This document shows positions 33,290 through 52,327 of a stretch of 64,000 nucleotides of DNA, in pieces (position 1 is the first letter of the stretch; each line of letters begins with the position of its first letter). Where the stretch lies: contig NZ_SLWU01000001.1 in the NCBI RefSeq assembly GCF_004345675.1, positions 62,001 through 126,000 on the forward strand, given 5' to 3'. Made by a program: the position numbers and the translations under genes. Below the pieces are notes generated by a model, which did not search any database, was not told where the DNA came from, and saw only the letters and a program-made list of their open reading frames with translations. The DNA is from Caldanaerobacter subterraneus (GTDB taxonomy: Bacteria; Bacillota; Thermoanaerobacteria; Thermoanaerobacterales; Thermoanaerobacteraceae).

Positions 33290-36034
33290 TTGACAAATAA
33301 GGAGAAAGTTTTTAATCTGGTCAAAGAGCTATCCCAGAATATAAATGTAAAGGAGAAAAAGGGCATAACTGCTCAGGAGGTAGCCCGGAAATTAAATCTG
33401 AGAAGAAATGTAGCAAGTCACCTTCTAAACGAACTTCACAAGGAAGGTAAGTTAATAAAAATTAACACAAGGCCTGTGTATTTTGTAGATAGGGAAATTT
33501 ACGAAAAGAGGGCAAAGGAGTTTAAGGATACTACAAAGGATGTAAGCACTTCCTTGAAATCTTCATCAGAAGATCCTTTTGTAAAGCTTGTAGGCTACAA
33601 CGGCAGTTTAAAAGAACAGGTAAAACTGTGCAAATCTGCTGCTTCATACCCGCCAAACGGACTTCCTATTTTGCTTACTGGTAGTACAGGAGTAGGGAAA
33701 AGCTATATTGCTCAGCTAATTTATGAGTACGCCAAGTATATAGGAGTTATAGATGAAAATGCGCCGTATGTGATATTTAACTGCGCAGAATATGCAAATA
33801 ATCCTGAACTTTTGTCTGCTAATTTATTTGGTTATGTAAAAGGGGCATTTACAGGGGCTGACAGGGACAAACCAGGCCTTTTAGAAGAGGCTGATGGAGG
33901 TTATCTGTTCTTAGATGAAGTGCACAGGTTACCTCCTGAAGGGCAGGAAAAACTCTTCCTCTTTATGGACAAAGGCATATTCCGAAGGCTGGGAGAGACG
34001 AACAACTGGAGAACGGCAAAGGTAAGATTTGTATTTGCTACTACTGAAGACCCTGAAAAGACTTTTACAAAAACTTTTTTAAGAAGGATTCCTTTGGTGG
34101 TCCACATACCTTCTTTTGATGAAAGGCCTTTGCACGAAAGATTGCAATTAATTTACAATTTTTACAGAAATGAAGCAAGAAATTTAGGGATGGATATTTT
34201 AATAAGTAAACAGGTTTTGAATGTGCTTTTAAAGACAAAGGTTTCAGGGAATATCGGTAAACTTATAAATGTCATAAAATATAGCTGTGCCCAGGCTTAC
34301 AGCCATATTATCAAGAGCAAAACCAATATTTTAAGAATTCACCTTTATGACCTTCCTAAGGAAATGCAGACGGACCTTGATATAGTAAAAAGTAACTTCC
34401 ACTTCAATGGAATGCTCATTTCTCACAATAAAAAGGATGAAGGTTTGTCCTGGGAAAAGGATGACAATAGAGAGATATACAGTGCTTTAAACAAAATGTT
34501 TGAACTTTTTAAGGAATATCAAAATAATGGCATTGCTTCTGAAGAGTTTAAGAAAAACGTGTTGGTTTATTTAAACGAACTGACGGATACTATAATTTTC
34601 AAGAATGACAGCAGCTATATAGATTCAATAGTCTTTAACGCTATCAAAAATGTTGTAGAAAATGTTCTCAATATAATGCAAAACATGTATGGAATTAAAT
34701 ATTATGGCAATTCTGTTCTTGTCCTGTCTCATTTTATCAATTACCTTTTGAGTGATGTGACTTATGAGAAGTATTCTGAGAGCATAGAGTCAGCTTTGGA
34801 GATATTGAAAAATATCTTCCCGAAAGAGTTTATAATAGCAAACAAAATGGCGGATCTGATAGAGGTAAACCTCGATATTAAACTCAACAAGATTGCTGTG
34901 GCATATTTTACACTTTATGTAAGAAGTTTAAACAAGACTGAGTCAGCAAATTTGATAAATTCCATAATAATCGCTCACGGGTATTCTACTGCCAGCAGCA
35001 TTGCCAGCGTTGCTAACAGGCTTTTGGGACAGTTTGTCTTTGAAGCTTTTGACATGCCAATTGAGATGTCTACACAGGAGGTAATGGCAAGGGTTCAGGA
35101 GTATCTAAAAAATATTGATACCTCAAGAGGAGTTATCATTCTTGTTGACATGGGTTCTTTAGAGGAGATATACAAATCTTTAACTGACATTGTGGAAGGA
35201 GATATAGCGATTATAAACAACATAACAACGCAGCTGGCTTTGGATGTTGGGAATAGAATACTTCAAAATCAGCCTCTGGAGCAGATTGTTACAGAGGCGA
35301 TACAGAGGAACAGTATTACCTATAAGTTTATTAAAACAGAGAGAAAGAAAATCTCTATACTTACAACTTGTATTACAGGAATTGGAACTGCAGTTAAGAT
35401 AAGGGATTTACTATACGAATGTTTAAAAGGTGAAAAAATAGAAATAATTGCATACGACTTTAACAGATTAAGAGGAAATGGTATTGGGGATGAGATTTTC
35501 AAAGCCTATAATGTGAAACTAATTATAGGTACTGCGGATCCGGGAATAAAGGATGTACCTTATTTATCTTTAGAGGATTTAATCACAGGGAACGGGGAGG
35601 TATTGTTAAAGAGGGTTTTAGAAGGGGTTGTCGATAATGAGGTTATAGAAAAGGTAAATCAGGCAATAGTCAAACACTTTTCGTTGCAGAATGTGCTTCA
35701 ATATCTTACGTTCCTTAATCCTGCTAAAATAATTGACCAGGTAGAAAAAGCTATCAGTGATTTGGAAATTTATCTGGGATTCAAATTTCCAAATAGTCTT
35801 AAGATAAGTCTTTATATTCATGTGAGTTGTATGATAGAAAGATTGATAATGAAAGACCCTATCAATTGTTACGAAAATATTGAAGAATTTGAAAAGTGTC
35901 ATAGACACTTCATAGAAGGTGTAAAATCTTCTTGTAGTGTAATAGAAGAAACCTACAAAGTGGATATTCCACTATCAGAAATTGGGTTTATATACGATAT
36001 AATCCGCTCAAAGGTAAAAGATGTAGCTATTTGA
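33290..36034 (+). CDS. Second LevR-type sigma-54 activator (two PRDs, EIIA/EIIB-like)
   Basis: 914 residues. DNA-binding winged helix (ITAQEVARKLNLRRNVASHL, about 27-46); AAA+ domain with Walker A GSTGVGKS (about 131), GAFTGA (about 184), Walker B LFLDEVHRLP; first PRD (about 440-555); mannose-family EIIA-like domain with AHGYST (about 561); EIIB-like domain with TTCITGIGTA (about 691); second PRD (about 800-914) with IHVSCMIERL. This is the classical LevR architecture. Start TTG at 33290, 7 nt after GGGGAG. No PTS operon follows directly; repeated palindromes with a -24/-12 promoter point to the ABC operon at 36.9 kb and the mannose-type PTS operon at 50.8 kb as targets (inference). One palindrome lies within its own 3' coding end. 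Confidence 0.9.
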   Translation: MTNKEKVFNLVKELSQNINVKEKKGITAQEVARKLNLRRNVASHLLNELHKEGKLIKINTRPVYFVDREIYEKRAKEFKDTTKDVSTSLKSSSEDPFVKLVGYNGSLKEQVKLCKSAASYPPNGLPILLTGSTGVGKSYIAQLIYEYAKYIGVIDENAPYVIFNCAEYANNPELLSANLFGYVKGAFTGADRDKPGLLEEADGGYLFLDEVHRLPPEGQEKLFLFMDKGIFRRLGETNNWRTAKVRFVFATTEDPEKTFTKTFLRRIPLVVHIPSFDERPLHERLQLIYNFYRNEARNLGMDILISKQVLNVLLKTKVSGNIGKLINVIKYSCAQAYSHIIKSKTNILRIHLYDLPKEMQTDLDIVKSNFHFNGMLISHNKKDEGLSWEKDDNREIYSALNKMFELFKEYQNNGIASEEFKKNVLVYLNELTDTIIFKNDSSYIDSIVFNAIKNVVENVLNIMQNMYGIKYYGNSVLVLSHFINYLLSDVTYEKYSESIESALEILKNIFPKEFIIANKMADLIEVNLDIKLNKIAVAYFTLYVRSLNKTESANLINSIIIAHGYSTASSIASVANRLLGQFVFEAFDMPIEMSTQEVMARVQEYLKNIDTSRGVIILVDMGSLEEIYKSLTDIVEGDIAIINNITTQLALDVGNRILQNQPLEQIVTEAIQRNSITYKFIKTERKKISILTTCITGIGTAVKIRDLLYECLKGEKIEIIAYDFNRLRGNGIGDEIFKAYNVKLIIGTADPGIKDVPYLSLEDLITGNGEVLLKRVLEGVVDNEVIEKVNQAIVKHFSLQNVLQYLTFLNPAKIIDQVEKAISDLEIYLGFKFPNSLKISLYIHVSCMIERLIMKDPINCYENIEEFEKCHRHFIEGVKSSCSVIEETYKVDIPLSEIGFIYDIIRSKVKDVAI
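35895..35944 (+). promoter_or_regulatory. Palindromic activator-site pair inside levR-type 3' end (copy A)
   Basis: AGTGTCATAGACACT (35895-35909), a perfect palindrome, and the half-site AGTGTAATA (35936-35944), starting 41 nt later. The same arrangement is found at 36563 and 50595. Here it is also coding (CHRH of the second PRD). A terminator-like hairpin with TGGCATATTTTTTACT lies 150 nt downstream. Confidence 0.45.
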
Positions 36035-36035
36035 A

Positions 36036-36072
36036 AGTGCCAGCAGTGTTACACTGTCTGGCATATTTTTTA
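36036..36072 (+). terminator. Terminator of the second LevR-type gene
   Basis: TGCCAG (36039-36044) pairs with CTGGCA (36058-36063), with an inner CAGTG/CACTG stem, followed by a T run. Confidence 0.7.
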
Positions 36073-36082
36073 CTCCTTTACC

Positions 36083-36535
36083 TGTGGTCCTACCTCTCTC
36101 AGAATGCTTATGGGGTATTACAATGAATGGCATTCATTAGAAGAAATTGCACTTTATATGGAGCAAATTGGAAACAGCCTATATTATGGAGGTGTAGGAG
36201 GGGATACAATAGTAGAGGCTGCTCGGCATTTTGGGTTTAAAGAGGCGAAATTAAAATATGGATGGGAGGAATTGAAAAAATCCATAGCTTCAGGAAATCC
36301 CTGTATTGTATATCTCAGGATAAGAGCGGGAGATTATCCACGGTATTATCTGGATGACAAGCCAGTATATACCAATTTTACAGGGGGACACTGGGTAGTT
36401 GTTTGTGGGTTGGAAGCTGATGAAAATGGGAATGTAAAATATGTAGTAGTCAATGATCCGGCAAGTGGGGCTAATCCTAAAAATTTACACCCTTGTCCTT
36501 CGATACAGCATGGTCGAGATTTAGGCTTTTGGTAA
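36083..36535 (+). pseudogene. Truncated C39-like cysteine peptidase fragment
   Basis: The translation CGPTSLRMLMGYYNEWHSL ... FTGGHWVVVCGL ... VVVNDPASGANP holds the catalytic Cys, His and Asp positions of a C39-type (Peptidase_C39_2) domain. The first available ATG (36104) lies after the catalytic Cys codon (36083), and the frame upstream runs into the LevR terminator and stop, so the signal peptide and N-terminus are lost. Intact relatives are secreted proteins. I read this as a gene fragment left by a rearrangement; the C-terminus may also be altered. Confidence 0.65.
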
Positions 36536-36562
36536 TACTGAGGGAGGGAGAGAAAGCAGAAC

Positions 36563-36613
36563 AGTGTCATAGACACTTTTCTTCGGGATTTTAAATTTCT
36601 TTGCAGTGTAATA
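36563..36613 (+). promoter_or_regulatory. Palindromic activator-site pair upstream of the ABC operon (copy B)
   Basis: AGTGTCATAGACACT (36563-36577) and half-site AGTGTAATA (36605-36613), 42 nt apart, about four helical turns. The palindrome is centred about 112 nt upstream of the -12 GC of the -24/-12 site at 36669, the usual distance for a sigma-54 activator site. Confidence 0.6.
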
Positions 36614-36643
36614 AAAAATTGTTGATTGTTAAATAGATATAGA

Positions 36644-36681
36644 CCATGCCAACGGTTACTACACTTGTTGGCATGGTTTTT
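36644..36681 (+). terminator. Inverted repeat overlapping the -24 box (possible terminator)
   Basis: CCATGCCAAC (36644-36653) and GTTGGCATGG (36667-36676), perfect 10-bp arms followed by TTTTT. It could end upstream transcripts; it shares its right arm with the sigma-54 promoter. Confidence 0.6.
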
Positions 36682-36684
36682 GCA
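36669..36684 (+). promoter_or_regulatory. Sigma-54 promoter of the ABC/hexosaminidase operon
   Basis: TGGCATGGTTTTTGCA matches the -24/-12 consensus with GG and GC ten apart, 181 nt before the start of the binding-protein gene. It overlaps a terminator-like hairpin, so part of the match could be due to the hairpin arm and T run; the GC at the right place and the upstream palindromes favour a promoter. Confidence 0.6.
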
Positions 36685-36864
36685 ATTATTTTTTAGCGGA
36701 AAATGTGATATGCTTATTTTATGGAGAAAGTGTGGGACTACAGCAAGTATTTTCAGTAAACGATTGACAGTTTGAAGAAAAAGGAGGGAGAAGGGCGGGA
36801 AGAAGAAAAACATTTTAGATTTTTCAAATTTTAAGATTTTTACATGAGGAGGGAGCCATTTATA

Positions 36865-38169
36865 ATGAGAAAATTTATTGCTTTACTAGTAGTGATGGCG
36901 TTGATAATTGGTGCTATGGCAGGATGTGCTACTAAAACCAGTCAAAAAGAGCAGCAGCCTTCTCAGGAGGCTCAACAGCCCACTCAGCCGCAAGTCACTA
37001 TAAAATTCTGGCAGGCTGGTGGAGACACAGCAGGTGCAGCTGAAAAAATGTCTGAACTCATCAAAAAGTTTGAAGAGAAACATCCAAACATTAAGGTAGA
37101 GTATATGGCAATTCCATGGGCAGAGGAACCTCATAATAAGTTCCAGACAGCTATAGTAAGCGGTGAAGTAGCTGATTTGCTGATAGTAGGATCTCCTTTT
37201 GACCACGTTCTCGCAAGCAGTGGAGCGATAATTCCTTTAGACCAGTTTATAGATGAAGAATTGAAAAAAGATCTGATGGATGTCTTTTCAAGAGAAGGAA
37301 TTTATCACGGCAAGAACAAGGACCTTGATGGCAAATTAATCTCTATACCTATGTTTGGTGATGTTAGAACGATTGTATATAACAAAGACATCTTCAAGAA
37401 AGCAGGAGTGCCTGAGCCTACAGAATCTTGGACATTAGAAGAATTTAAGCAAAATGCTTTGAAACTCACAAAAGATGGCGTGTACGGATTTGGCACTTCT
37501 GGAAGATATGCATCCCAATGGTTGCCATTTGTATGGGACAAAGGTGGAGAAATACTCAACCAGGAAATGACAGAAGCAACTATTACTACTCCAGAATGGA
37601 AAGAAGCATGGGAATATTACATTGAGCTTATCAACAAAGCTAGTATGCCGGGTTCGGTAAATGTTAACTTGGCAGAGATTCAGAAATTGTTTGCACAGGA
37701 AAAAGTAGCAATGTTTGTAACCACACAGGACTATGTAGAAGAGCTCATGAAAGATCCCAACTTAAAAGATAAAATAGGTGTTGGACAGATGCCTCATGAC
37801 AAATATCAGACAGCTTTTGCTGGAGCAGATGTTTTTGTGATTACTAAGCAATCTAAGCATCCAAAAGAAGCTTGGGAACTTTTAAGATTCCTAGTATCCA
37901 CGGAGAACCAGCTAGAGTATTGTAAGACTGTGGGATTCTTACCTGCAGTTAAGTCAGCAGCTAGCGATCCTTACTTTACAAATGACCCTGTTAAAAAAGG
38001 CTTCTTGCAGGCTCTTGAACATGGTAAATTCTATGTGAAGTCAGACAAGGCAAATGGTATAACTACGATACTGCGTGCAGAGATTCAGAATGCTATTACT
38101 GGTAAAAAGTCAGTCCAAAAAGCTTTGGAAGATGCAAAACAAGCCATAGATTTACTTCTAAATTCTTAA
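36865..38169 (+). CDS. CUT1-type ABC sugar-binding lipoprotein
   Basis: 434 residues. Lipoprotein signal MRKFIALLVVMALIIGAMAGC with the lipobox cysteine at about 21, then a short Gln/Ser linker and a type-I solute-binding fold (VTIKFWQAGGDTAGAAEKM, FEEKHPNIKVEYMAIPW, KEAWELLRFLVSTENQLEY) like UgpB/MalE-type proteins for oligosaccharides. The start is ATG 36865, behind GAGGAGGGAG. First gene of the ABC operon. A hairpin follows it, which typically makes the binding protein more abundant than the permeases. Confidence 0.9.
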   Translation: MRKFIALLVVMALIIGAMAGCATKTSQKEQQPSQEAQQPTQPQVTIKFWQAGGDTAGAAEKMSELIKKFEEKHPNIKVEYMAIPWAEEPHNKFQTAIVSGEVADLLIVGSPFDHVLASSGAIIPLDQFIDEELKKDLMDVFSREGIYHGKNKDLDGKLISIPMFGDVRTIVYNKDIFKKAGVPEPTESWTLEEFKQNALKLTKDGVYGFGTSGRYASQWLPFVWDKGGEILNQEMTEATITTPEWKEAWEYYIELINKASMPGSVNVNLAEIQKLFAQEKVAMFVTTQDYVEELMKDPNLKDKIGVGQMPHDKYQTAFAGADVFVITKQSKHPKEAWELLRFLVSTENQLEYCKTVGFLPAVKSAASDPYFTNDPVKKGFLQALEHGKFYVKSDKANGITTILRAEIQNAITGKKSVQKALEDAKQAIDLLLNS

Positions 38170-38185
38170 CACTTCAAGTAAATGA

Positions 38186-38225
38186 GGGAGAGGGGAGCCT
38201 TAATTCAGAATTTGTTCCTCTCTCC
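38186..38225 (+). terminator. Intercistronic hairpin after the binding-protein gene
   Basis: GGAGAGGGG (about 38187-38195) pairs with CCTCTCTCC (38217-38225) with one mismatch. No strong T run; likely an mRNA-stabilising or partial terminator. Confidence 0.5.
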
Positions 38226-38317
38226 TGTAATAAATTTAGGTGCCTACAAATTGATCTTGTTTCCAGAAGAAATTTGCGGAAGAGAGAATTCATATTAGGA
38301 AAGTGGTGGAGGAAAAG

Positions 38318-39211
38318 ATGATCGTTACAAATAGAAAAGAGAAAGTTGGATATTACTTATTCTTGTTGCCAGCCTATTTGATTTTTGCAGTATTTATTTT
38401 TTGGCCTGTGGTTCACTCTTTGTATCTTTCTTTTTTCAAATATAACATAGTTACAATTACTTCTCCACAATTTGTGGGATTGAGGAATTATCTATATTTA
38501 CTCAAAGACGAGGTTTTCTGGATAAGTTGCAAAAACACCTTGTTTTTTGTGATAGGTACTGTTCCTGTGAAGATGTTTTTAGGCCTTTTGGCTGCAATGC
38601 TTCTCAATAGAAAGGATTTGAAATTTAAAGCTTTCTACAGAACCTGCTTTTATATTCCTGTGGTAGTCTCTATGGTAGCAATTTCCATCGTGTGGATGCT
38701 TCTTTTCAACCCGGGTCCAAATGGAGTAGTAAATATTTTGCTTTCAAAATTTGGAATTCAGCCGCTAGGTTGGATAGCAGATTCTAAACTTGCGCTGCCT
38801 ACAGTGATGTTGCTAGTAATATGGAAAGATTTGGGTTATATTATGGTAATTTACTTAGCAGGGCTTATGGCAATTCCCGATGAAATTTATGAAGCGGTGG
38901 CATTAGATCCCGTGAGCTCGTGGCAGAAATTTTGGTATATTACATGGCCTTTATTAAAACCAACAACGATCTTTATACTTATCACCCAGGTGATAGATTC
39001 ATTCCAGGTATTTACTCCAATTTATGTGATGACAGAAGGAGGACCGGGCTATAGTAGTACTACTATAGTAAATTACCTATATGATAAAGGTTTTAGAGAA
39101 TACGAGATGGGAATTGCATGTGCAGTAGCATACCTGTTATTTGTGGTGTTACTTGTTTTAACCATACTGCAGAACAAACTTTCTAAAGCAGAAGAAGTAT
39201 CTTACGACTAA
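38318..39211 (+). CDS. ABC sugar permease, UgpA/MalF type
   Basis: 297 residues, six predicted transmembrane helices, and the cytoplasmic EAA loop EAVALDPVSSWQKFWYITWP that contacts the ATPase. ATG at 38318 lies 5 nt after GGAGG; GTG codons at 38303/38306 overlap that site. Works with the next gene product. Confidence 0.9.
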   Translation: MIVTNRKEKVGYYLFLLPAYLIFAVFIFWPVVHSLYLSFFKYNIVTITSPQFVGLRNYLYLLKDEVFWISCKNTLFFVIGTVPVKMFLGLLAAMLLNRKDLKFKAFYRTCFYIPVVVSMVAISIVWMLLFNPGPNGVVNILLSKFGIQPLGWIADSKLALPTVMLLVIWKDLGYIMVIYLAGLMAIPDEIYEAVALDPVSSWQKFWYITWPLLKPTTIFILITQVIDSFQVFTPIYVMTEGGPGYSSTTIVNYLYDKGFREYEMGIACAVAYLLFVVLLVLTILQNKLSKAEEVSYD

Positions 39212-39253
39212 ATGACGAGAATACGAAAATTTACCTGAAGAGAGGGATGCAAA

Positions 39254-40078
39254 GTGAAAAAACTGTTGCTTTATTTAATATTGACTTTAATTGCCTTTTT
39301 GATGCTTTCCCCACTGTTATGGATGGTATCTACTTCGCTTTCTAAGGACTCTGTAATTGTATCTACAAGCCTTATCCCAAAAGAATTTACTTTAGAAAAT
39401 TATGTAAAAGCATGGAATTTTCCTCGTATATTCAATAAAGATGTGACTTTTGGCACATTCTTTTTGAATAGCATAATAGTGACGGTATGTCTTGTTATAG
39501 GAGGACTTTTTTTTGACTCGCTGGCGGGATATGTTCTTGCTAGAAAGGATTTCCCGGGAAGAAGTTTGTTTTTCTATGCTGCCCTTATAACCCTTATGAT
39601 TCCCTTTTATGTTACAGCAATACCTATGTTTCTTATAGTTAAAGGATTGGGCTGGATTAATACCTATCAGGGTTTAATTGTTCCCTTCCTATCATCTGGG
39701 TTTGGGATATACATGTTTAAACAATATTTCCAGACAATTCCTATTGAATTGGAGGAAGCTGCAAAAATAGATGGTTATTCAGACTTCTGGATTTACGCCC
39801 GAGTGATAGTGCCTCTTGCCAAGCCAGCATTTGCAACAATGGGAATTTTAAAGTTTTTGTGGTCATGGAACATGTTCTTTTGGCCTTTGATCGTTACTAC
39901 AGATATCAAGATGAAGGTATTGCAGCTAGGGCTTACAATGTTTAGGGGTCTTAATGTGACTCAATGGGGACTTCTTACAGCAGGTATGACCATGGCAACA
40001 CTGCCTACTATTTTGGTATACTTGCTTTTCCAGAGATACTTTACAAGTGGTTTGATAGCAGGCTCTTTAAAAGGCTAA
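39254..40078 (+). CDS. ABC sugar permease, UgpE/MalG type
   Basis: 274 residues, six transmembrane helices, EAA loop EEAAKIDGYSDFWIYARVIVP. Start GTG at 39254 behind AGAGAGGG. The second half of the CUT1 importer. No ABC ATPase gene occurs in this operon or window; CUT1 systems in Firmicutes often share one MsmX-type ATPase. Confidence 0.9.
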   Translation: MKKLLLYLILTLIAFLMLSPLLWMVSTSLSKDSVIVSTSLIPKEFTLENYVKAWNFPRIFNKDVTFGTFFLNSIIVTVCLVIGGLFFDSLAGYVLARKDFPGRSLFFYAALITLMIPFYVTAIPMFLIVKGLGWINTYQGLIVPFLSSGFGIYMFKQYFQTIPIELEEAAKIDGYSDFWIYARVIVPLAKPAFATMGILKFLWSWNMFFWPLIVTTDIKMKVLQLGLTMFRGLNVTQWGLLTAGMTMATLPTILVYLLFQRYFTSGLIAGSLKG

Positions 40079-40097
40079 AAAGTGGGGTCGAAATAGC

Positions 40098-41111
40098 ATG
40101 AAAATTTTTGCTGGGTACGACTGCGGAGGCAGTAAAACAAAGTGCATTATTGCAGATGAAAATGGAGAAATCTTGGCCAGTGCGGAAGAGGGGCCTTCAA
40201 ATTTTCTTTCTTGCGGTTATGAAATTGCAAGAAAATCCATAAAGGAATGCACCCGACAGGCTCTAATAAAGGCGGGTTTGGAAGAAGATCAAAAAATTTA
40301 CAGTGCCTATATAGGGTCAGCATCTGTTGAGTTGTTTTCTCAAAATGAAAGGATTTATAACTTTTTCAGGAGTTGTGTTAATGCAGAGCATCTGGGGATA
40401 AACAACGATGCCTATATAGCTTGGTATGGGACTACTTTTGGAAGTACAGGAATCATATCAATAGCAGGTACTGGGGCAGTGACTTACGGAATACGCGAAG
40501 ACGGGAGTTGGAAAAAGGTAGGAGGATGGGGATATCTTATAGGAGATGACGGCTCAGGATATTCGTTAGGGAGGAAAGCTCTTCAATTAGCAGTGAAGTC
40601 ATATGATGGAATAATTGAAAAAAATAGATTTGAAGAGGAGATATCAAAGTTTTTTAATTTGGATTCCATGAGAGACCTTGTAGGAATGTTGTATCAGGAC
40701 CCCTACAAAGGAGTGAAGATAGTAGCTTCTGCTGCCACATGTGTTTTTAAATTATTCGATGCCAACTATTGTTTAGCGATAGAACTCATAGATAAGGCAG
40801 TTTCTCAGATTGCCGATTCAATATATGCAGTTTATTCTTCGCTGGATTTAAGAAACCAATTTATCAAAATAGGAGTATCGGGAGGAGTATTTTACGGAGG
40901 AGGAAGTAAATTACTAGATCTTCTTCAAAGTAAACTTATAGAGCGTGGGGTGGAAAAGTTCTGCCTCACCTTCCCTCACATACCTCCTGAGGTTTCAGCG
41001 CTGTTACTTTCTTACAGCCAAGTAAAACATCAAGATTACGAGAAGATAAAGCAGGCTATCTTATGCCGATTCAAAAACAACAATGAGGTGGATCAAAATT
41101 GCGTATTCTAG
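40098..41111 (+). CDS. BadF/BadG-family ATPase, probable amino-sugar kinase
   Basis: 337 residues with an actin-type ATPase fold: phosphate-1 loop FAGYDCGGSKTKCIIADENG, IISIAGTGAVTYGIREDG and VGGWGYLIGDDGSGYSLG. The family includes N-acetylglucosamine kinases and MurK-type kinases for N-acetylmuramic acid and N-acetylglucosamine. In an ABC-importer and hexosaminidase operon it most likely phosphorylates the imported amino sugar. A paralogue heads the PTS operon at 50.8 kb. Its stop overlaps the next gene by 13 nt. Confidence 0.8.
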   Translation: MKIFAGYDCGGSKTKCIIADENGEILASAEEGPSNFLSCGYEIARKSIKECTRQALIKAGLEEDQKIYSAYIGSASVELFSQNERIYNFFRSCVNAEHLGINNDAYIAWYGTTFGSTGIISIAGTGAVTYGIREDGSWKKVGGWGYLIGDDGSGYSLGRKALQLAVKSYDGIIEKNRFEEEISKFFNLDSMRDLVGMLYQDPYKGVKIVASAATCVFKLFDANYCLAIELIDKAVSQIADSIYAVYSSLDLRNQFIKIGVSGGVFYGGGSKLLDLLQSKLIERGVEKFCLTFPHIPPEVSALLLSYSQVKHQDYEKIKQAILCRFKNNNEVDQNCVF

Positions 41112-42376: not shown

Positions 42377-42390
42377 AGCGGTGGTGAAAA

Positions 42391-43518: not shown

Positions 43519-44250
43519 GTGAATACCCGATATATAGAGAGTATCAGAAAATTAATAGATGAGATTGAAAAGACGCAGTGGCAGGTAATAGAACAGGTTT
43601 CCCAAGTATGTGCACAGGCAATAAAAAACGACAAACTTCTTTATTTCTTTGGGACTGGACATTCACATATGATGTGCGAAGAGCCTTTTTACAGGGCTGG
43701 TGGCCTTGCATGTGTATATCCAATATTGGAACCTTCTCTTATGCTCCACGAGGGAGGATATAAAAGCACCTTGATGGAGAGAGTAGAAGGGATAGGGAAG
43801 ATACTTCTGGAAAACAGTGGGCCAAGTGAAGGAGATGTACTATTTTTGATTTCAAATTCCGGTAGAAATTCTGCAGTAATAGAAATGGCTATCGAGGCAA
43901 AAGAAAAGGGAATTATCACTGTAGCCATTACATCTCTAAAACATTCAAAGACCTTCTCTTCCAGGCACAGAAGTGGCAAAAACCTCTATGAACTTACGGA
44001 TTATGTAATAGATAATTGTGGAATTCCTGGAGATGCAATAGTGGAATACGAAGGCTTTTCTCAGAAGGTAGGACCTACTTCTTCTATTGCTGGAATTCTT
44101 ATAATAAACACTATAATAACCAACGTAGTGGAGAAATTATTGTCCTGGGGTATAACACCTCCAGTATTCATAAGTGCCAATACGGACGAAGGTGAAAAGT
44201 TTAACCAACACCTTCTTGAAAAGTACAGGCTTCGAATAAAGGTTTTGTGA
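43519..44250 (+). CDS. SIS-domain sugar-phosphate protein (UPF0309-like)
   Basis: 243 residues with a phosphosugar-binding SIS fold: FFGTGHSHMMCEEPFYRAGG at the N-terminus and FLISNSGRNSAVIEMAIEAK in the middle. The MRAGG-like segment and length fit the UPF0309 group rather than MurQ etherases. It may isomerise or bind an amino-sugar phosphate. Start GTG at 43519 follows the previous stop without any gap, with GGAGG in the end of the M20 gene. Confidence 0.8.
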   Translation: MNTRYIESIRKLIDEIEKTQWQVIEQVSQVCAQAIKNDKLLYFFGTGHSHMMCEEPFYRAGGLACVYPILEPSLMLHEGGYKSTLMERVEGIGKILLENSGPSEGDVLFLISNSGRNSAVIEMAIEAKEKGIITVAITSLKHSKTFSSRHRSGKNLYELTDYVIDNCGIPGDAIVEYEGFSQKVGPTSSIAGILIINTIITNVVEKLLSWGITPPVFISANTDEGEKFNQHLLEKYRLRIKVL

Positions 44251-44281
44251 AAGATTAAAAGCGTTGAGGGGGGGGTATATT

Positions 44282-46507
44282 ATGAAATGGTGTAAAAAGG
44301 TTGTAAGCTTAATTATTTCGGTATGTATGGTGATGACTTTCATCAGTCTGAAAGAAAGCAGTGCCATTGCCAAAGAAAAAGAGGGGAGAGAAGAAGTGAG
44401 AGTAGCAGTATTAGAAGCGAAGGAAGCTACAACTCCAAAAAGTGTAGAACAAGTCATTCACGTGTTAAAGGAATATGGAATAAAAGCTGAAAAAATTTCA
44501 CCAAAGGAGGTTGCAAAGGACAAACTAGAGAAATTCGATGTAATTGTCATACCTGGAGGAAGGTCTCTCAATCAGGCAGAAGCCCTGGGAGAGAAGGGTC
44601 GGGAAGCTATTAAGGAATTTGTTAAAAGAAGAGGAGGATACATCGGAATTTGTGCAGGGACATATCTCGCTACCAAGGGCGAGGGTAAATATGATTCCTA
44701 TCTTGGAATTGTGAATGCTCAAGTCGTTGATATTGAACACTGGAACAGGGGATGTGGTGACGTCCAAATTAAGGTAAAATCGCTGGAGCATCCTGTGATT
44801 TCTGGTTATTATGGAACTCTCACCGTCCACTATAAAAACGGACCTATTTTGAAAAAAATTGATGTACCAGGTATGCCATCTTACGTAGAATTGGCTTCCT
44901 ACATCAGCGATATTCATGACAACGGACCGGAAGGAATTACGCCTAACACTCTGGCTTTAATTGCTTCAGAATATGGTGAAGGAAGAATAGTACTTTTCAG
45001 CTTTCATCCCGAATATACTGCGGGGCTGGGAAAAATGCTTATGCAAGCGGTATTGTGGTGTGCAAAAACTTCTCCCGAAGAGTATCCTCTCAAGTTAAAG
45101 AAAAGCCATGATGTGAAAGTCAAAGGGGCATGGCTGTGGGGAAGCACAGTGTACAATTTGGGAGTAGATGGAGCGAAGATAATAACAGATCAGATGAAAG
45201 AATATGGTTTTACCGATATATTTCTTCTTGTAAAAGGGACGGCAGGGAGAGTTGATTATAATAGCAGAATAGCTTTGGGACTAGCTCATCCCGATAGGGA
45301 TATATTAAAAGAAGTAGTAGAGGAAGCACACAAAAAGGGAATAAGAGTTCATGCCTGGTTTGTTGTGAACTCTGATAAACAGTGGGCAACGCTTCATCCC
45401 GAAGATAGGATGGTACACATCAAGAAAGGGCCCGATGATAGTAGGATATCTCCATTATCTATAAATTACAGGGAATATGTAAAGAATCTTGTAAAAGAAG
45501 TCTTGGAAAACTATAAGGTCGATGGAATTCACCTGGATTATATAAGATATCCACACGTGGTATTTGGATTTAATGAGAATTATGAGGTTACAGAAGCAGT
45601 AAAAATAGGAATAGATATGAATAAAATAAAATCTTTGATAGATCGCACTTTCTATACGGATAAAGATGGCAAATCTATATTTGAAGCGTATGATAGAGGA
45701 GATAAAGATGTTGTTGGATGGATAGAAATGAGGAAAAACGCCGTAAAATCTTTTGCAGAGGAAATAAAGGAAGTAGTGAAGTCCTACAGTCGAAAAGTGA
45801 AATTTTCTGCTGCATTGATGCCAGAAGGAGCATATGATTCTAACTTCTTAACAGCCCAGAATGATTCTAGAACCTTTGCATTAGTGCATTATGGACAGGA
45901 TTATAAAGATGCTTCTTCCATTTATGACTTTGCGGTGCCTATGCTTTATTGGGGGGACTATGGCAAATCACCCCAATGGACTGCAGTACTTTATAACAAT
46001 GCAGTAGAAATGTTTGATAATAATAAGAGAGTATATGCTGGATTACAGGCATACAGTCCTGTTAAAACTTATGACCTTTGTGATGCAGTAAATTATATAA
46101 GACAAAGTGAAAGCGAAGGAATAGTTTTCTTCAGGTTTGGGACTTTTGGCTTAAGTAAAACTGCAGTGAAAGAGGCGAAAGATGGCGAAAAAGTGATGAC
46201 CGTGATTATGACAAATCCTTTAAACCAGGATAATTCACCGAATGTCGACATTACGAAGGTTGAAATAGAGCTTAAAGGAAACTATGTAGCAAAGGAGATC
46301 GTGGAAACAAGTTCAGAAATCTCTGCCAAAATTTCTGAGAGTGGAAAAGTAGTTATAATAACAGGTAATCCTTGTATACCACAGAATGGAACATTGAAAA
46401 TTGCCATATCAGTTCGAGGGGAAGAACCCAAGGATGTAGAACCTGCCCAGGTTAGATTTTACGTAACAGACAAGTACTATGAAGTAAGAGTCTACAACCA
46501 ATACTAA
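44282..46507 (+). CDS. Secreted BPL_N amidotransferase-like + GHL10-type glycosidase fusion
   Basis: 741 residues. A signal peptide (about 1-30) is followed by a class-I glutamine-amidotransferase-like domain of the biotin-ligase N-terminal type (VIVIPGGRSLNQAEALG, GYIGICAGTYLA with Cys at about 125, FSFHPEY), then a TIM-barrel domain (about 280-600) of the GHL10/DUF187 type (AWLWGSTVYNLG, VHAWFVVN, VDGIHLDYIRYPH) and a C-terminal beta domain. GHL10 proteins are putative glycoside hydrolases acting on cell-wall or other glycans. Start ATG 44282, after a run of nine G; TTG 44264 rejected. A terminator-like hairpin follows. Confidence 0.75.
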   Translation: MKWCKKVVSLIISVCMVMTFISLKESSAIAKEKEGREEVRVAVLEAKEATTPKSVEQVIHVLKEYGIKAEKISPKEVAKDKLEKFDVIVIPGGRSLNQAEALGEKGREAIKEFVKRRGGYIGICAGTYLATKGEGKYDSYLGIVNAQVVDIEHWNRGCGDVQIKVKSLEHPVISGYYGTLTVHYKNGPILKKIDVPGMPSYVELASYISDIHDNGPEGITPNTLALIASEYGEGRIVLFSFHPEYTAGLGKMLMQAVLWCAKTSPEEYPLKLKKSHDVKVKGAWLWGSTVYNLGVDGAKIITDQMKEYGFTDIFLLVKGTAGRVDYNSRIALGLAHPDRDILKEVVEEAHKKGIRVHAWFVVNSDKQWATLHPEDRMVHIKKGPDDSRISPLSINYREYVKNLVKEVLENYKVDGIHLDYIRYPHVVFGFNENYEVTEAVKIGIDMNKIKSLIDRTFYTDKDGKSIFEAYDRGDKDVVGWIEMRKNAVKSFAEEIKEVVKSYSRKVKFSAALMPEGAYDSNFLTAQNDSRTFALVHYGQDYKDASSIYDFAVPMLYWGDYGKSPQWTAVLYNNAVEMFDNNKRVYAGLQAYSPVKTYDLCDAVNYIRQSESEGIVFFRFGTFGLSKTAVKEAKDGEKVMTVIMTNPLNQDNSPNVDITKVEIELKGNYVAKEIVETSSEISAKISESGKVVIITGNPCIPQNGTLKIAISVRGEEPKDVEPAQVRFYVTDKYYEVRVYNQY

Positions 46508-46516
46508 GAGATTGAT

Positions 46517-46572
46517 GGGGAGCACCTTTGTGGCTTTAGACACAAAGGTCTCCCTTGGCTTGTGCTTTTTAA
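46517..46572 (+). terminator. Strong hairpin before the GH3 gene
   Basis: GGGGAGCACCTTTGTG (from 46517) pairs with CACAAAGGTCTCCC (to 46554) with a small mismatch; a T run occurs only 14 nt later, so termination may be partial. Confidence 0.55.
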
Positions 46573-46611
46573 TGGGGTTTTACTTTATGGACTCATAGGG
46601 AGGGAGTAAAA

Positions 46612-48210
46612 GTGGAAATAAATAAGATGAGTTTGGATGAGAAAATAGGTCAAATGATTATGGCAGGTTTCCCTTCTAATTATTATGATGAGCACATTGA
46701 CGTACTTGTAAGCAAGTACAAGGTAGGAAATTTTGTATTGTTTACAAGAAATATAGGTTCTGTAGAAGAGATTGTCAGTCTTACCGAGACCATTCAAAAA
46801 AAGGTCCTTGAACAATCAGGTATACCTGCTATTATAGGAGCAGATCAAGAAGGAGGGATGGTCAGCCAAGTTAGGGAAGAGGCTGTATTTTTTCCAGGGA
46901 ATATGGCAGTATCCGCTGCAAATATAGAAGGAAGCACATTGAAAGAAGGAGAGATAGTAGGAGAAGGTCTCAAAGCCTTGGGTATAAATCTTAATATAGC
47001 ACCTGTACTGGATGTGAATAACAATCCTAAAAACCCCATAATTGGCGTGAGGTCATATGGGGATGACCCTGAGAGAGTAGCTAGACTAGGGATTGATTTT
47101 ATAAAAGGCATGCAAAGCAAAGGAGTAATTGCTACAGCAAAACACTTTCCAGGTCACGGAGATACGTCGGTAGACAGCCATCTTGATATGCCTGTTGTCC
47201 CTTATGACAGAGAGAGGCTTGAAAGAATGGAGTTTTATCCTTTCAGAAAAGCAGTGGAAGTTGGTGTGGATGCAATTATGACAGCTCATATATATTTTCC
47301 GGCAATGGATACTGAAAAAATTCCTGCTACCTTATCTTACAACATCCTCACAAAGCTTTTGAGAGAGGATATGTGTTTTGAGGGGATTACCATAACTGAT
47401 TGTATAGAGATGAATGCAATTTCAAAGAAATTCGGTTCGGAAAAAGGAGCAGTCAAGGCGATAAATGCTGGTGCTGATATGGTAGTTATATCCCATCATC
47501 TGGATGTACAGATAAGGTGCATAGAGGCTATAAAGGAAGCTGTTCTAAACGGAGAAATTCCTGAGGAAAGGATAAATGAATCAGTAGAGAGGATATTGAG
47601 GATAAAGAAAAAGTATGGATTCTTTGAAAATCCTTATCCTGACCTGATCAGAGCAAAAGAAGTGTTAAGTTGCAAAGAGTATATAGAATTTGCTAGAGAA
47701 CTCAGTGAAAAAAGTATTACCCTCATAAAAGATGAAAAAGGGCTGATACCTCTTGGTGATGCTAAAGATATGAGAATTGTCTTCATTTCTCCAGAGCCGA
47801 AAATGTTTATGGGAGGGATATGGGAGGCTGTCAGAAGGAAGTATACTCTATCAGAAGTTTTGAAGGAGGAGTTTGGAGGAAAATCAATAGTGATTTCCTT
47901 CAATCCGGAGGAGAATGAGCTAGAAAAAGTGGTTGAGGAGTGTAGAGAGAGTGACAAAATAGTAATAGGAGTTTCCGCGCTGAATTTAAACCCGGGGCAA
48001 GTAGAGCTTGTGCGCAGGTTATCTTGCTTGGGAAAAGATATAATAACGATTTTACTTGGAAATCCATATGATTTTCTTCTGATAAAGGAATATGTTTCTA
48101 CCTGCATTTGTGCTTATGAACATACTCCTTTATCGGTGAAAAGTGTTAGAAAAGTTTTAAAAGGAGAAATAAAATGTGAAGGAGTTTTGCCTGTAAAGAT
48201 AGAAATATAA
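46612..48210 (+). CDS. nagZ: GH3 beta-N-acetylhexosaminidase (NagZ-like)
   Basis: 532 residues: TIM barrel with GADQEGGMVSQVR, the NagZ signature KHFPGHGDTSVDSHLDMP (acid/base His-Asp pair) and GITITDCIEMNAI (nucleophile Asp), and a C-terminal second domain as in Gram-positive enzymes. There is no signal peptide, so it acts on imported glycans. It releases terminal N-acetylglucosamine from muropeptides or chitin-type oligosaccharides. Start GTG 46612 behind GGGAGGGAG. Confidence 0.9.
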   Translation: MEINKMSLDEKIGQMIMAGFPSNYYDEHIDVLVSKYKVGNFVLFTRNIGSVEEIVSLTETIQKKVLEQSGIPAIIGADQEGGMVSQVREEAVFFPGNMAVSAANIEGSTLKEGEIVGEGLKALGINLNIAPVLDVNNNPKNPIIGVRSYGDDPERVARLGIDFIKGMQSKGVIATAKHFPGHGDTSVDSHLDMPVVPYDRERLERMEFYPFRKAVEVGVDAIMTAHIYFPAMDTEKIPATLSYNILTKLLREDMCFEGITITDCIEMNAISKKFGSEKGAVKAINAGADMVVISHHLDVQIRCIEAIKEAVLNGEIPEERINESVERILRIKKKYGFFENPYPDLIRAKEVLSCKEYIEFARELSEKSITLIKDEKGLIPLGDAKDMRIVFISPEPKMFMGGIWEAVRRKYTLSEVLKEEFGGKSIVISFNPEENELEKVVEECRESDKIVIGVSALNLNPGQVELVRRLSCLGKDIITILLGNPYDFLLIKEYVSTCICAYEHTPLSVKSVRKVLKGEIKCEGVLPVKIEI

Positions 48211-48249
48211 ATAAAACTATCGTTATTGAATAAGGAGGTAAAAAATGTA

Positions 48250-49383
48250 ATGGAAGGTCCAAGAGCTTGTAGAAAAGAGGAATTTAAAGAAGCATTAGAT
48301 CTTATTAACCACGTATTTCGCATTACTCAGGGTCACGAGCCTACGATGGGGCAGGAGTTTCCTCTACTTCTCAGCGAAGATAATCTGGAAAACATGAGGG
48401 TAATTGCAGAGGATGGGAAAATAGTATCTATTGTAAATTTCTACATCACCACGATTCTAATAGAAGGAACTCCTATAAAAGCTGCTTCAGTAGGAGCAGT
48501 TTGTACTCATGAGGACTACAGAGGAAAGGGATATTCTTCCCTGTTACTGGATGATGCAGAAAAAGAGATGAAGAAAAAGGGAGTAGATGTTGTGCTTGTC
48601 TCTGGAGATAGAAGCCTGTACTTGAGAAGGGGGTATTGTAAAGCTGGATGGGCAATCCGATTTGATGTATACCCTGAAGAATTGGGAGAGGATATTGAGC
48701 TTGTGGAATTTGAAGATAAGTATTTGATTGAAATGGCGAAAATGTACAATAAACAAACTACTAGATATTATAGAAGCTTGTTTGAATTCAAAAACCTTCT
48801 AAAAGGTGCAACTACACCATGGGGAAATTTCACTTACAAGACTTATCTTGTAAAGAGAGGAGATGTTTTAAAAGGATATGTAGTTCTTCGTATAATTCAC
48901 GAAAACCCTGAAAGAGGATATGTAGTTGAATACGGGGGCGACGAGAGGACTGTGCTTAAGAGTTTAAAAAAGATGGCAGTAGTACATTCTCTGACCCATA
49001 TTCGAGTACCCTGTACTTTTAATGAAAAAATGGTAGAAGTCATAAAAGAAGAAAATATTCCTTTTGAAGAAATTAATCTTCTAGGAACAGTTAAAGTTTT
49101 GAATTTCAAACAACTAATGGAAAAACTAGTTCCATACTTTTCTCAGTATGTAGAAAAAGAAATTATAAAAAATTTGAAATTTGTCGAGGATGAGGGTAAA
49201 TATACTATAGAATTCAATGGAGAAACTCTGACATTGGATGGGGTAGAGAAACTTACAAAATTAGTTTTTGGAGACAAAGGATTTGGAATAGCCCTTGATG
49301 GAGTAGGACCTCGCCTAAAAGAATTTTTCTCAAGAGTGTTTCCATTGCCTTTTGTATGGCCTGGAAATCTCAATTTCCAGTGA
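48250..49383 (+). CDS. GNAT-family acetyltransferase, Eis-like
   Basis: 377 residues. N-terminal GNAT fold with acetyl-CoA loop VCTHEDYRGKGYSSLLLDDAE, a second GNAT-like half, and a C-terminal SCP2-like domain ending in a terminal FPLPFVWPGNLNFQ. This two-GNAT plus sterol-carrier layout is that of Eis-type aminoglycoside/lysine acetyltransferases. In this operon an amino-sugar or amine substrate is likely. ATG at 48250 chosen, 11 nt after AAGGAGG; TTG 48226 lies upstream of that site. Confidence 0.75.
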   Translation: MEGPRACRKEEFKEALDLINHVFRITQGHEPTMGQEFPLLLSEDNLENMRVIAEDGKIVSIVNFYITTILIEGTPIKAASVGAVCTHEDYRGKGYSSLLLDDAEKEMKKKGVDVVLVSGDRSLYLRRGYCKAGWAIRFDVYPEELGEDIELVEFEDKYLIEMAKMYNKQTTRYYRSLFEFKNLLKGATTPWGNFTYKTYLVKRGDVLKGYVVLRIIHENPERGYVVEYGGDERTVLKSLKKMAVVHSLTHIRVPCTFNEKMVEVIKEENIPFEEINLLGTVKVLNFKQLMEKLVPYFSQYVEKEIIKNLKFVEDEGKYTIEFNGETLTLDGVEKLTKLVFGDKGFGIALDGVGPRLKEFFSRVFPLPFVWPGNLNFQ

Positions 49384-49470
49384 GGTAGAGTTGGTGAAGG
49401 ATATATAATATATTATATTACTTAACTGTACTGTAGTATGGAACGTATAAGAAGAAGGAGATGAGAAAAA

Positions 49471-49851
49471 ATGCTCATGAAAATACTGAGAACATTCCTT
49501 GGATGTTTTTTGACAGGGTTAATAGTTCAAAGTGCATGGGTAGCGCTGGTAGAGGCCTACGGGCTTATAGGGGGATGGTTTGCGGCCTTCATCATAATAA
49601 GTCCTATGTGGTTTCTAAATCATTACCTGGGGTTGATTGAAAATGAAAAGGATGGAGCATGGATTGATATGGCAATAGGCATTGCTGTGGCGGGGCTGGT
49701 GAGAGATCTATTTAAGGTTCATTCTTTCAGCTTTGCTTTCAAAGTCTTGCCAGTTTTGCTTGCAGTCATCGCAGGAGGAATTGTAGGAGGCTATCTCGCG
49801 GTGTTTGTAAAACAAGGGATGGCAAAAGAAACGGAGGAGGAGAAGGTATGA
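49471..49851 (+). CDS. Small membrane protein 1 of a paralogous pair
   Basis: 126 residues with four predicted membrane segments. Core pattern GLIGGWFAAFIIISPMWFLN, HYLGLI, DGAWIDMAIG is repeated in the next gene's product. From memory this resembles proteins annotated as Lin0368-family putative glycerol-transporter subunits; that label is unverified. It overlaps the next gene by 4 nt, suggesting a two-subunit membrane complex serving this operon. Confidence 0.7.
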   Translation: MLMKILRTFLGCFLTGLIVQSAWVALVEAYGLIGGWFAAFIIISPMWFLNHYLGLIENEKDGAWIDMAIGIAVAGLVRDLFKVHSFSFAFKVLPVLLAVIAGGIVGGYLAVFVKQGMAKETEEEKV

Positions 49852-50180
49852 AGTATGAATGCATCATCACTGCATTTGTAGCGGGATTTATCTTTCCTTT
49901 TCTTATAGAATTATTGTGGCATGAGATGGTAAGATTGTGGGGACCGATGGGGGGATGGATTGGTGCAGGGTTCATTGTGGGAACAGTATGGATAGTGAAT
50001 CATGGTCTGAACTTGATACCCCAAATGGGGCCATGGGTTGATATGACATGGGGACTATGCGCAGGCCTTTTTACTGCTTCAATAGTGCGTGGTGGGAAAT
50101 TCAAAAAAGCTCTTCCTCATTTGGTGGGAGGGATTTTAGGAGGAATAGTGGCAGGGTATATTTTGTCATTGTTTGTTTAA
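49848..50180 (+). CDS. Small membrane protein 2 of a paralogous pair
   Basis: 110 residues, four predicted membrane segments. GPMGGWIGAGFIVGTVWIVN, HGLNLI, GPWVDMTWG aligns with the preceding protein, keeping the GGW, NH and W-x-DM residues. Tandem paralogues with an ATGA-type overlap are typical for heterodimeric small transporters. Last gene of the operon, followed by a terminator. Confidence 0.7.
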   Translation: MKYECIITAFVAGFIFPFLIELLWHEMVRLWGPMGGWIGAGFIVGTVWIVNHGLNLIPQMGPWVDMTWGLCAGLFTASIVRGGKFKKALPHLVGGILGGIVAGYILSLFV

Positions 50181-50194
50181 AAAATGTACAAAGA

Positions 50195-50240
50195 AGGCGG
50201 GTGCTAAACTTTCCAAAGCGCCTGCTTTTCAGTTGTTTTT
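50195..50240 (+). terminator. Terminator of the ABC/hexosaminidase operon
   Basis: GCGGGTGCT (about 50197-50205) pairs with AGCGCCTGC (about 50217-50225) including two wobbles, followed by TTTTCAGTTGTTTTT. Confidence 0.65.
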
Positions 50241-50319
50241 AGTGCAATTTTTGAGGGGAAAATATAAGAAAATAAAATTATTGCAACCAAAAATTCATAG
50301 ATATGCCTTAACCGAACAG

Positions 50320-50515
50320 GCATAGGAAATTGCCAATAAGTCCATGTTTAGCTCTTTTCATGCTAAACAATGAAGGAGTACCTGCAAATTATGAAGCAGA
50401 TATGGAAGCTTTAATTACTCTTTGTTTTTTACATTATATAGGGTGGTAGACCTGGTTTTCAGGCAGACTAGTATTGAGGTTGTGAATAAGCTTTATCTTG
50501 ACCTTTTTATATTAT
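50320..50515 (+). pseudogene. Remnant of an L-fucose-isomerase-like gene (C-terminal part)
   Basis: The frame near 50325-50450 reads LPISPCLALFMLNNEGVPAN, then YEADMEALITLCFLHYIG; a one-base shift continues GRPGFQAD and another SIEVVNKLYLDLF. The C-A-L-x-L-N-x-E-G-x-x-A-x-x-E-x-D pattern is that of the C-terminal domain of L-fucose isomerase and related sugar isomerases. Two frameshifts and the missing N-terminal two thirds show it is dead. Confidence 0.65.
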
Positions 50516-50594
50516 AACAAGTGTAACTCCTAAGAAGTGAGTGATGTTATTATTTGAGCCTGCTGCTTAGAGTATCTTTTAACACATTTAACCT

Positions 50595-50643
50595 AGTGTC
50601 ATAGACACATAGAAATTCTTATCCTGTTTTTATCAGTGTCATA
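50595..50643 (+). promoter_or_regulatory. Palindromic activator-site pair upstream of the PTS operon (copy C)
   Basis: AGTGTCATAGACACA (50595-50609; inner 13 bases a perfect palindrome) and half-site AGTGTCATA (50635-50643), 40 nt apart. Same arrangement as at 35895 and 36563. Confidence 0.6.
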
Positions 50644-50721
50644 GTCTGCAATCTTTAAATAGGCTGTAAAGAGGAGGAATAATCTAGTTATAAGGGAGAT
50701 AAAGAATTTTATTACACTGTT

Positions 50722-50737
50722 TGGCACATTTTTTGTT
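50722..50737 (+). promoter_or_regulatory. Near-consensus sigma-54 promoter of the PTS operon
   Basis: TGGCACATTTTTTGTT has a perfect -24 box (TGGCAC) and the right spacing, but GT instead of GC at -12. It lies 133 nt downstream of the centre of the palindrome and 60 nt before the kinase start. Confidence 0.35.
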
Positions 50738-51787: not shown

Positions 51788-51841
51788 TTTACAAAAGGAC
51801 TTGAATATGATAAAACCTAAAGTAAAAGGAGATGAGTATTA

Positions 51842-52324: not shown

Positions 52325-52327
52325 ATT

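Follow-up and report, generated by a model that had tools for sequence, protein, structure and literature searches.

In the 64,000-nucleotide stretch of Caldanaerobacter subterraneus DNA that we analysed (the window), the LevR-type activator LevR2 very probably acts together with sigma-54 to drive both an ABC import operon and a PTS operon through a shared composite enhancer, as judged from the sequence. The first-pass annotation had proposed tandem enhancers for the LevR-type protein at 33290-36034 that would join the two operons, and this is still the best reading of the in silico evidence.

LevR2 consists of an N-terminal winged helix, an AAA+ domain, an EIIA-Man domain and a PRD2 domain, in this order. 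The AAA+ domain (PF00158, E 6.8e-41) contains a conserved GAFTGA at residue 185, and a PF03610 match and two PF00874 stretches account for the EIIA-Man and PRD parts, as expected of a LevR-type protein. His563 in EIIA-Man and His844 in PRD2 are invariant in 18 sequences. The N-terminal winged helix was modelled with a pLDDT of 82 and matched MarR and Zalpha winged helices in Foldseek with probability 1.0, at E-values of only 3e-3.

The composite motif and its promoters

The elements around the three sites are as follows.

33290..36034, + strand: levR2, LevR-type sigma-54 activator of 914 aa (Pfam, residue conservation, winged-helix model and fold match)
35895..35909, + strand: UAS 1 palindrome, levR2 codons 869-874
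35936..35944, + strand: UAS 1 half-site AGTGTAATA, levR2 codons 883-885
36035..36535, + strand: C39-type peptidase gene fragment, fused into the site-1 promoter
36058..36074, + strand: site-1 sigma-54 element CTGGCATATTTTTTACT, defective at -12 (TTACT for TTGCW)
36563..36577, + strand: UAS 2 palindrome, 5' of the ABC operon
36605..36613, + strand: UAS 2 half-site AGTGTAATA
36641..36679, + strand: terminator-like hairpin, the 3' arm of which forms the -24 element at site 2 (MFE -21.2 kcal/mol, z -5.1)
36668..36684, + strand: site-2 sigma-54 promoter TTGGCATGGTTTTTGCA, matching the consensus throughout, with 105 bp between the start of UAS 2 and -24, preceding the ABC operon
50595..50609, + strand: UAS 3 palindrome, 5' of the PTS operon
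50635..50643, + strand: UAS 3 half-site AGTGTCATA
50721..50737, + strand: site-3 sigma-54 promoter TTGGCACATTTTTTGTT, near-perfect, with 126 bp between the start of UAS 3 and -24, preceding the PTS operon

The 15-mer AGTGTCATAGACACT is matched exactly at 35895 and 36563 and with one differing base, a final A, at 50595, and the half-sites begin 41, 42 and 40 nt after the 15-mer starts, at 35936, 36605 and 50635, respectively. A pattern search thus bore out the pairs that the first-pass annotation had described at these positions, 40-42 nt apart. The pattern searched, AGTGTMATWGACA-N27-29-AGTGTMAYA, occurs three times in the 2.58-Mb genome, always inside the window, against an expectation of ~9e-5 (~0.0001); it did not occur in 40 Mb of simulated sequence, and a reversed-pattern control gave no matches. 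At up to three mismatches to the 41-nt form, no further regulon members were found genome-wide. We also considered the motif as a dispersed repeat and the three sites as copies of one long duplicated segment, and rejected both: five other 15-mers with one or two mismatches that we inspected in the genome have neither a half-site nor a sigma-54 promoter nearby, and the three sites do not align outside the UAS and promoter. Site 2 has a weak additional similarity to the 3' end of levR2 in a sister genome (G007), and may be a decayed copy of that end.

A -24/-12 sigma-54 element lies 3' of every site (36058, 36668 and 50721), 105-163 bp after the UAS start. The genome has a single rpoN. Sites 2 and 3 have the layout of a sigma-54 enhancer/promoter unit (TTGGCAY-N5-TTGCW with a UAS ~100-250 bp 5'), whereas site 1 fails at -12, where its promoter is broken by the C39-peptidase gene fragment. 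This fragment is missing at the corresponding place in G007, where the element is intact (TTGGCACATTTTTTGCA); no full-length copy of the C39 gene was found in the genome, and the fragment is probably non-functional. Site 1 would be an intragenic enhancer that has lost its own promoter in this genome, leaving sites 2 and 3 as those that would drive the operons here. Of the three copies first put forward as regulon links, it is therefore these two, each before an operon, that keep this role. The -24/-12 elements and the position of site 1 within the activator's coding sequence had both gone unmentioned in the first annotation.

The palindromes could fold in RNA, and a terminator-like hairpin is present at most of the promoters, so the repeats might be RNA-level elements (terminator, attenuator or antiterminator target) or a mobile repeat instead of DNA enhancers. 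We regard this as highly improbable: the UAS palindrome is set apart from the hairpin and, being 5' of the expected sigma-54 start, would be outside the operon transcript; moreover, the palindrome is not dispersed in the genome, and the sites have only the motif and the promoter in common.

Conservation and distribution of the proposed enhancer

In a codon table of 12 Bacillota levR2 orthologues, ten have the UAS 1 palindrome at an identical place in the coding sequence; L061 and L057 have lost it. Site 1 might simply reflect protein-level conservation of the PRD2 stretches K-C-H-R-H and S-V-I-E, the other copies being chance or functionless decayed duplicates, and the residues are indeed fairly conserved and within a PRD domain. 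However, the codons TGT, CAT, AGA, AGT and ATA are kept where amino-acid conservation permits alternatives, and in a codon test of synonymous conservation the half-site window ranked 1st of 873 (excess 0.43 against a mean of 0.09, sd 0.08), and that of the palindrome ranked 8th. In Clostridium, the palindrome positions are kept even though the residues differ. Copies with the same geometry are found in non-coding DNA in L057, L058, G012 and G015 and at two sites of the window; in L057, whose levR2 is 57% identical, the coding site is lost and the same composite is present in the intergenic region, free of coding constraint. We therefore give the protein-sequence explanation very little credence, and the intragenic enhancer copy is, judging from its codons, under selection at the DNA level. 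Applied to the 3' ends of the LevR1 and C10 LevR genes in search of a similar intragenic enhancer, the test made no terminal window prominent, on sequence sets too similar to discriminate.

Among 20 genomes of the family, 12 carry levR2, and the composite motif is found in exactly those (12/12 versus 0/8; hypergeometric p ~8e-6), a co-occurrence with orthologues of the 914-residue activator that had been singled out beforehand as a check. This association is in part automatic, one site being within levR2, and the independent evidence consists of the extra intergenic copies only (the window, G012, G013 and G015). Across 398 genomes sampled from the phylum, the motif is confined to levR2 carriers of this family; the genome, family and phylum scans gave no sign of the motif at many unrelated loci, a result that would have told against the earlier reading.

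The protein that recognises the palindrome could instead be LevR1 (encoded at 20281), the C10 LevR paralogue or a distinct repressor, with LevR2 merely adjoining the site. The genome contains eight strong sigma-54 activator matches, at least two of them other LevR-type proteins, and the palindrome by itself could be the operator of a dimeric repressor. Nevertheless, the composite motif is missing from six family genomes that lack levR2 but encode three to five further LevR-type proteins, the motif and the LevR2 winged helix are conserved together, and the sites are at enhancer distance instead of overlapping the promoter (105-267 bp from UAS start to -24 at 22 sites, all with a sigma-54 promoter). 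We consider another regulator unlikely and retain LevR2 as the probable binder.

In G007, an orthologous ABC operon directly follows levR2, with the intragenic UAS and a perfect sigma-54 promoter. A UAS-like AGTGTCACAGACACA/AGTATCATA (L137:13005) plus TTGGCATGCTTTTTGTT precedes the orthologous PTS operon, although the rest of this intergenic DNA has diverged beyond the reach of blastn; this site-3 counterpart is degraded at two positions and lies outside the strict pattern. The motif accordingly recurs before both orthologous operons, where its absence would have weakened the original proposal. Only one further family genome has the ABC operon, so two genomes in all support the ABC link. In other genomes, levR2 and the enhancer stay in place while the PTS cassettes are swapped.

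The two operons and their proposed control

Profile and homology searches gave the following assignments (gene starts).

36844..50180, + strand: ABC operon
36865 (probable start), +: SBP
38303 and 39254, +: two permeases
40098, +: BadF-type kinase
41099, +: ceramidase-like
42391, +: M20
43519, +: SIS_2
44264, +: GHL10/GHL6-type hydrolase
46612, +: GH3 beta-N-acetylhexosaminidase-like
48226, +: GNAT
49471 and 49848, +: two DUF6905
50798..57324, + strand: PTS operon
50798, +: BadF-type MurNAc/GlcNAc-kinase-like, first gene
51842, +: EIIB
52328, +: fused EIIC-EIID
53892, +: EIIA
54347, +: tagatose-bisphosphate-type aldolase
55207, +: PfkB/LacC kinase
56152, +: AgaS-family SIS

In the scheme that we infer for binding, phosphorylation logic and substrate, LevR2 would bind the 15-bp palindrome AGTGTMATAGACAST and the half-site AGTGTMATA four helical turns downstream and, with sigma-54 RNA polymerase, would activate the -24/-12 promoters ~105-165 bp 3' of the enhancer. 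PTS phosphorylation, the common signal of the original proposal, probably sets its activity, as suggested by the conserved EIIA-Man and PRD2 histidines: HPr~P at His563 would be activating, whereas EIIB~P at His844 would inhibit until substrate pulls the phosphate away. The same control may hold where the substrate enters through the ABC transporter. The ABC operon would import and degrade a beta-N-acetylhexosamine-containing glycan, the PTS operon would provide an Aga-type mannose-family PTS and tagatose-pathway enzymes, and amino sugars delivered by the ABC importer would enter the lower pathway encoded there. The gene contents fit metabolically, with a GH3 N-acetylglucosaminidase-like protein, MurK/NagK-like kinases, Aga-like EII proteins, AgaS, and LacC-like and GatY-like proteins. 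The ancestral enhancer would lie within the last 50 levR2 codons, just 5' of the target promoter, an arrangement in which transporter cassettes could be swapped while the activator and enhancer ahead of them stay the same.

LevR-type regulation has been described as PTS control of PTS operons, and in the literature that we searched no LevR regulon is described as including an ABC importer, a negative that carries little weight. It is possible, at somewhat less than even chances, that we are dealing with a recurrent undescribed design of Bacillota, in which the PTS is mainly a sugar sensor gating a LevR-type activator and an ABC transporter under its sigma-54 promoter is the bulk importer. The design would have arisen at least twice, as Thermoanaerobacter-type LevR2 with a CUT1 ABC importer and as Alicyclobacillaceae/Bacilli LevR with a CUT1 or CUT2 one, rpoN being linked in two loci; the Thermoanaerobacter-type enhancer within the activator coding sequence would make import cassettes swappable. 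If an activator gated by phosphorylation drives an ABC importer as well, PTS flux would become a signal to a transporter that works without PEP. An intragenic, synonymously constrained enhancer also means that intergenic-only scans would miss such UAS elements. Finally, the levR2 locus offers a natural series, with activator and enhancer constant and transporters exchanged, in which to see whether and how inducer specificity tracks with the partner EIIB.

Comparison with known systems

Bacillus subtilis LevR/levDEFG-sacC and the CelR, AtlR and GfrR groups of Clostridiales have the same AAA+ (GAFTGA), EIIA-Man-like and PRD architecture; in these systems, as for levR2, the activator gene is directly 5' of the target operon and the UAS ~100-250 bp 5' of a TTGGCAY-N5-TTGCW promoter (PMC6615313, PMC10864463). 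The target operons of the four PRD-type groups are PTS and catabolic, with no ABC importer (PMC6615313, Table 1), whereas the LevR2 enhancer is common to ABC and PTS operons and has one copy within the activator's own coding sequence. The Clostridium orthologues L059, L060 and L068 could be members of a published PRD group.

Salmonella DgaR and GfrR, which resemble LevR, activate mannose-family PTS operons that handle amino sugars or sugar amines; their regulons are PTS-only, and their binding sites are given as not known (PMC4987338). Enterobacterial LevR2 homologues (L062-L065) are 36% identical to LevR2, and their loci have no composite motif; LevR2 itself falls under the NCBIfam DgaR/DagR equivalog cut-off (NF047795, 578 bits versus 1400). 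The EIIA, EIIB, EIIC and EIID of the window are closest to Aga proteins, the type found in the Escherichia coli GalNAc/galactosamine PTS pathway, and relatives of AgaS, tagatose-bisphosphate aldolase and tagatose-6-phosphate kinase are shared. Unlike E. coli aga, the PTS operon has no recognised AgaA-type deacetylase; it begins with a MurNAc/GlcNAc-kinase-like gene and is under predicted sigma-54/LevR control, whereas the E. coli aga genes are under the AgaR repressor.

Clusters of Bacilli/Alicyclobacillaceae that came to light in our analysis (L074, L078, L079 and L080) combine a LevR-type gene and PTS EIIB/EIICD with, next, a perfect sigma-54 promoter and an ABC sugar importer. Their LevR proteins are 26-29% identical to LevR2, and the enhancer is a different one (AGTGTATT repeats); L074, L079 and L080 have no separate EIIA ahead of the promoter, and in L074 and L080 rpoN itself lies 3' in the cluster.

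The putative composite enhancer and its promoters

The first-pass annotation had placed a palindrome followed by a half-site, together forming a composite upstream activating sequence (UAS), at three positions, and a pattern scan located all three copies there (35895, 36563 and 50595; sites 1, 2 and 3). The 15-mer is exact at the first two and carries one mismatch at the third, and the half-site starts 41, 42 and 40 nt, respectively, after the start of the 15-mer, i.e., about four helical turns. The composite AGTGTMATWGACA-N27-29-AGTGTMAYA is expected 9e-5 times in the 2.58-Mb genome versus the three copies observed, all of them within the window, and a genome scan with the reversed pattern gave no match. 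A sigma-54 -24/-12 element lies 3' of each copy, and the genome encodes a single rpoN.

Sites, promoters and genes (distances from UAS start to -24)
33290-36034 (+), levR2, encoding the LevR-type sigma-54 activator LevR2
36058, site 1 promoter, CTGGCATATTTTTTACT, 163 bp, without the -12 TTGC
36668, site 2 promoter, TTGGCATGGTTTTTGCA, 105 bp, perfect consensus, precedes the ABC operon
36844-50180, ABC operon
50721, site 3 promoter, TTGGCACATTTTTTGTT, 126 bp, one base off consensus, precedes the PTS operon
50798-57324, PTS operon

A terminator-like hairpin (MFE <= -14 kcal/mol, z -1.6 to -8.3) accompanies 14 of the 20 LevR-linked sigma-54 promoters that were examined: its 3' arm is the -24 element and its 5' arm covaries with that element, as at window 36641-36679 and at the levR2 promoters of loci L137, L055, L059, L060, L068 and L061, among others. 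Since sigma-54 transcripts would begin beyond the hairpin, a possible role is to keep read-through transcription out of the operon. The L049 promoter in the window genome, 5' of an E1-dehydrogenase-like gene, has the same design. Most LevR2-linked promoters also carry an inverted half-site, ACACT, 2 nt 5' of TTGGCA (for example, 36052-36063, 36662-36672 and 50715-50726), a candidate for either a third contact or a second operator.

The intragenic site and its putative binder

Site 1 lies inside levR2 (codons 869-885). A UAS occupies the equivalent coding position in orthologs from Thermoanaerobacter, Thermoanaerobacterium and Clostridium (48-84% identity), with a sigma-54 promoter 3' of the levR2 stop codon. 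When codons of unchanged amino acids are compared, the half-site window (codons 879-885) ranks 1st and the palindrome window (codons 869-875) 8th of 873 windows for conservation; these ranks indicate selection on the DNA itself. Synonymous conservation within levR2 is also unusual over codons 536-544 (34895-34921). In a more distant ortholog locus (L057, 57% identity), the coding copy is gone and the same composite is intergenic instead, and L058, G012 and G015 carry an extra intergenic copy 5' of a second PTS operon.

The association of motif and activator anticipated by the first-pass annotation was borne out: both are present in the same 12 of 20 family genomes and missing from the same 8, a co-occurrence that is partly built in because one UAS sits inside levR2, the intergenic copies being its independent part. 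Six of those eight genomes encode three to five other LevR-type proteins, and among 398 genomes sampled across the phylum, every one with the motif was a levR2 carrier from this family. LevR2 combines an N-terminal winged helix with the GAFTGA motif, and its EIIA-Man His563 and PRD2 His844 are both invariant. At 20281-25290, the window holds a second LevR-type gene, whose product has a C-terminal EIIA_2 domain, directly 5' of a Gat-type PTS, with its own sigma-54 element at 23204.

A C39-peptidase fragment breaks the site 1 promoter at -12, and the frame of this fragment (FTCGPTSLRMLMGYY) passes through the promoter. The corresponding ORF (36104-36535), the sole copy in the genome, is a remnant whose insertion point is the -12 element of the former levR2-linked promoter.

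Exchangeable transporter cargo

In the sister genome G007, the counterpart of the site 1 promoter is intact (TTGGCACATTTTTTGCA), with the ABC operon directly 3', and the orthologous PTS operon (BadF, EIIB, EIIC, EIID, EIIA, aldolase and PfkB) stands behind UAS-like elements in DNA too diverged for its intergenic parts to give a blastn alignment.

Elements 5' of the G007 PTS operon
L137:13005, UAS-like palindrome, AGTGTCACAGACACA
L137:13047, half-site, AGTATCATA, 42 nt after AGTGTCACAGACACA
L137:13138, promoter element, TTGGCATGCTTTTTGTT

The proposal that tandem sigma-54 activator sites link levR2 with the ABC and PTS operons is supported by the promoter behind each copy, the co-occurrence with levR2 and the recurrence of both links in G007, and is refined in that site 1 is intragenic and its promoter broken. 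Within the family, the ABC operon occurs only in G007 and the window genome. The cargo 3' of the levR2-enhancer unit is ABC in G007 and ABC then PTS in the window; in most relatives it is a mannose-family PTS, of which there are two kinds, and the aldolase, PfkB and AgaS genes may or may not accompany it. Its far boundary in several genomes is TrkH or the aldolase-PfkB-AgaS genes. As read from these gene orders, the levR2-enhancer unit is constant and transporter cassettes are swapped 3' of it.

Predicted function and comparison with known systems

Besides a CUT1-type importer, which comes without an ATPase gene, the products of the ABC operon include a NagK-like kinase, an M20 hydrolase, a SIS_2 protein, a GHL10/GHL6-type hydrolase and a GH3 enzyme. 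Of the relatives of the GH3 enzyme with a solved structure, the best is a beta-N-acetylglucosaminidase. The PTS operon encodes Aga-like EII proteins, a MurNAc/GlcNAc-kinase-like protein, a GatY-type aldolase, a LacC/PfkB kinase and an AgaS-family protein. A putative pathway in which N-acetylhexosaminides would be imported, cut, phosphorylated and passed to the tagatose route fits the gene content of both operons.

In Bacilli and Alicyclobacillaceae, distantly related LevR genes adjoin genes for PTS EIIB/EIICD, and next come a perfect sigma-54 promoter and an ABC importer (CUT1 in L074, L078 and L080; CUT2 in L079); therefore, the LevR-ABC link is probably not confined to this window. L074:687-14049 and L080:7567-21976 read GH65, LevR, EIIB, EIICD, sigma-54 promoter with AGTGTATT repeats, ABC importer, rpoN and radical SAM, which places the gene for sigma-54 together with the activator and both transport systems.

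The activator, UAS, promoters and operons are individually of known kinds; what appears new is their combination, with ABC and PTS under one LevR enhancer code, an intragenic enhancer and exchangeable cargo. Binding by LevR2, its effect on expression and its phosphorylation logic are predictions. For Bacillus subtilis LevR, activation of the equivalent system by HPr~P and its inhibition by EIIB~P are described (PMC4987338, PMC10864463). In a comparison of clostridial sigma-54 regulons, none of the targets given for the four PRD-type groups is an ABC importer (PMC6615313), whereas the window places an ABC operon behind a LevR-linked enhancer.
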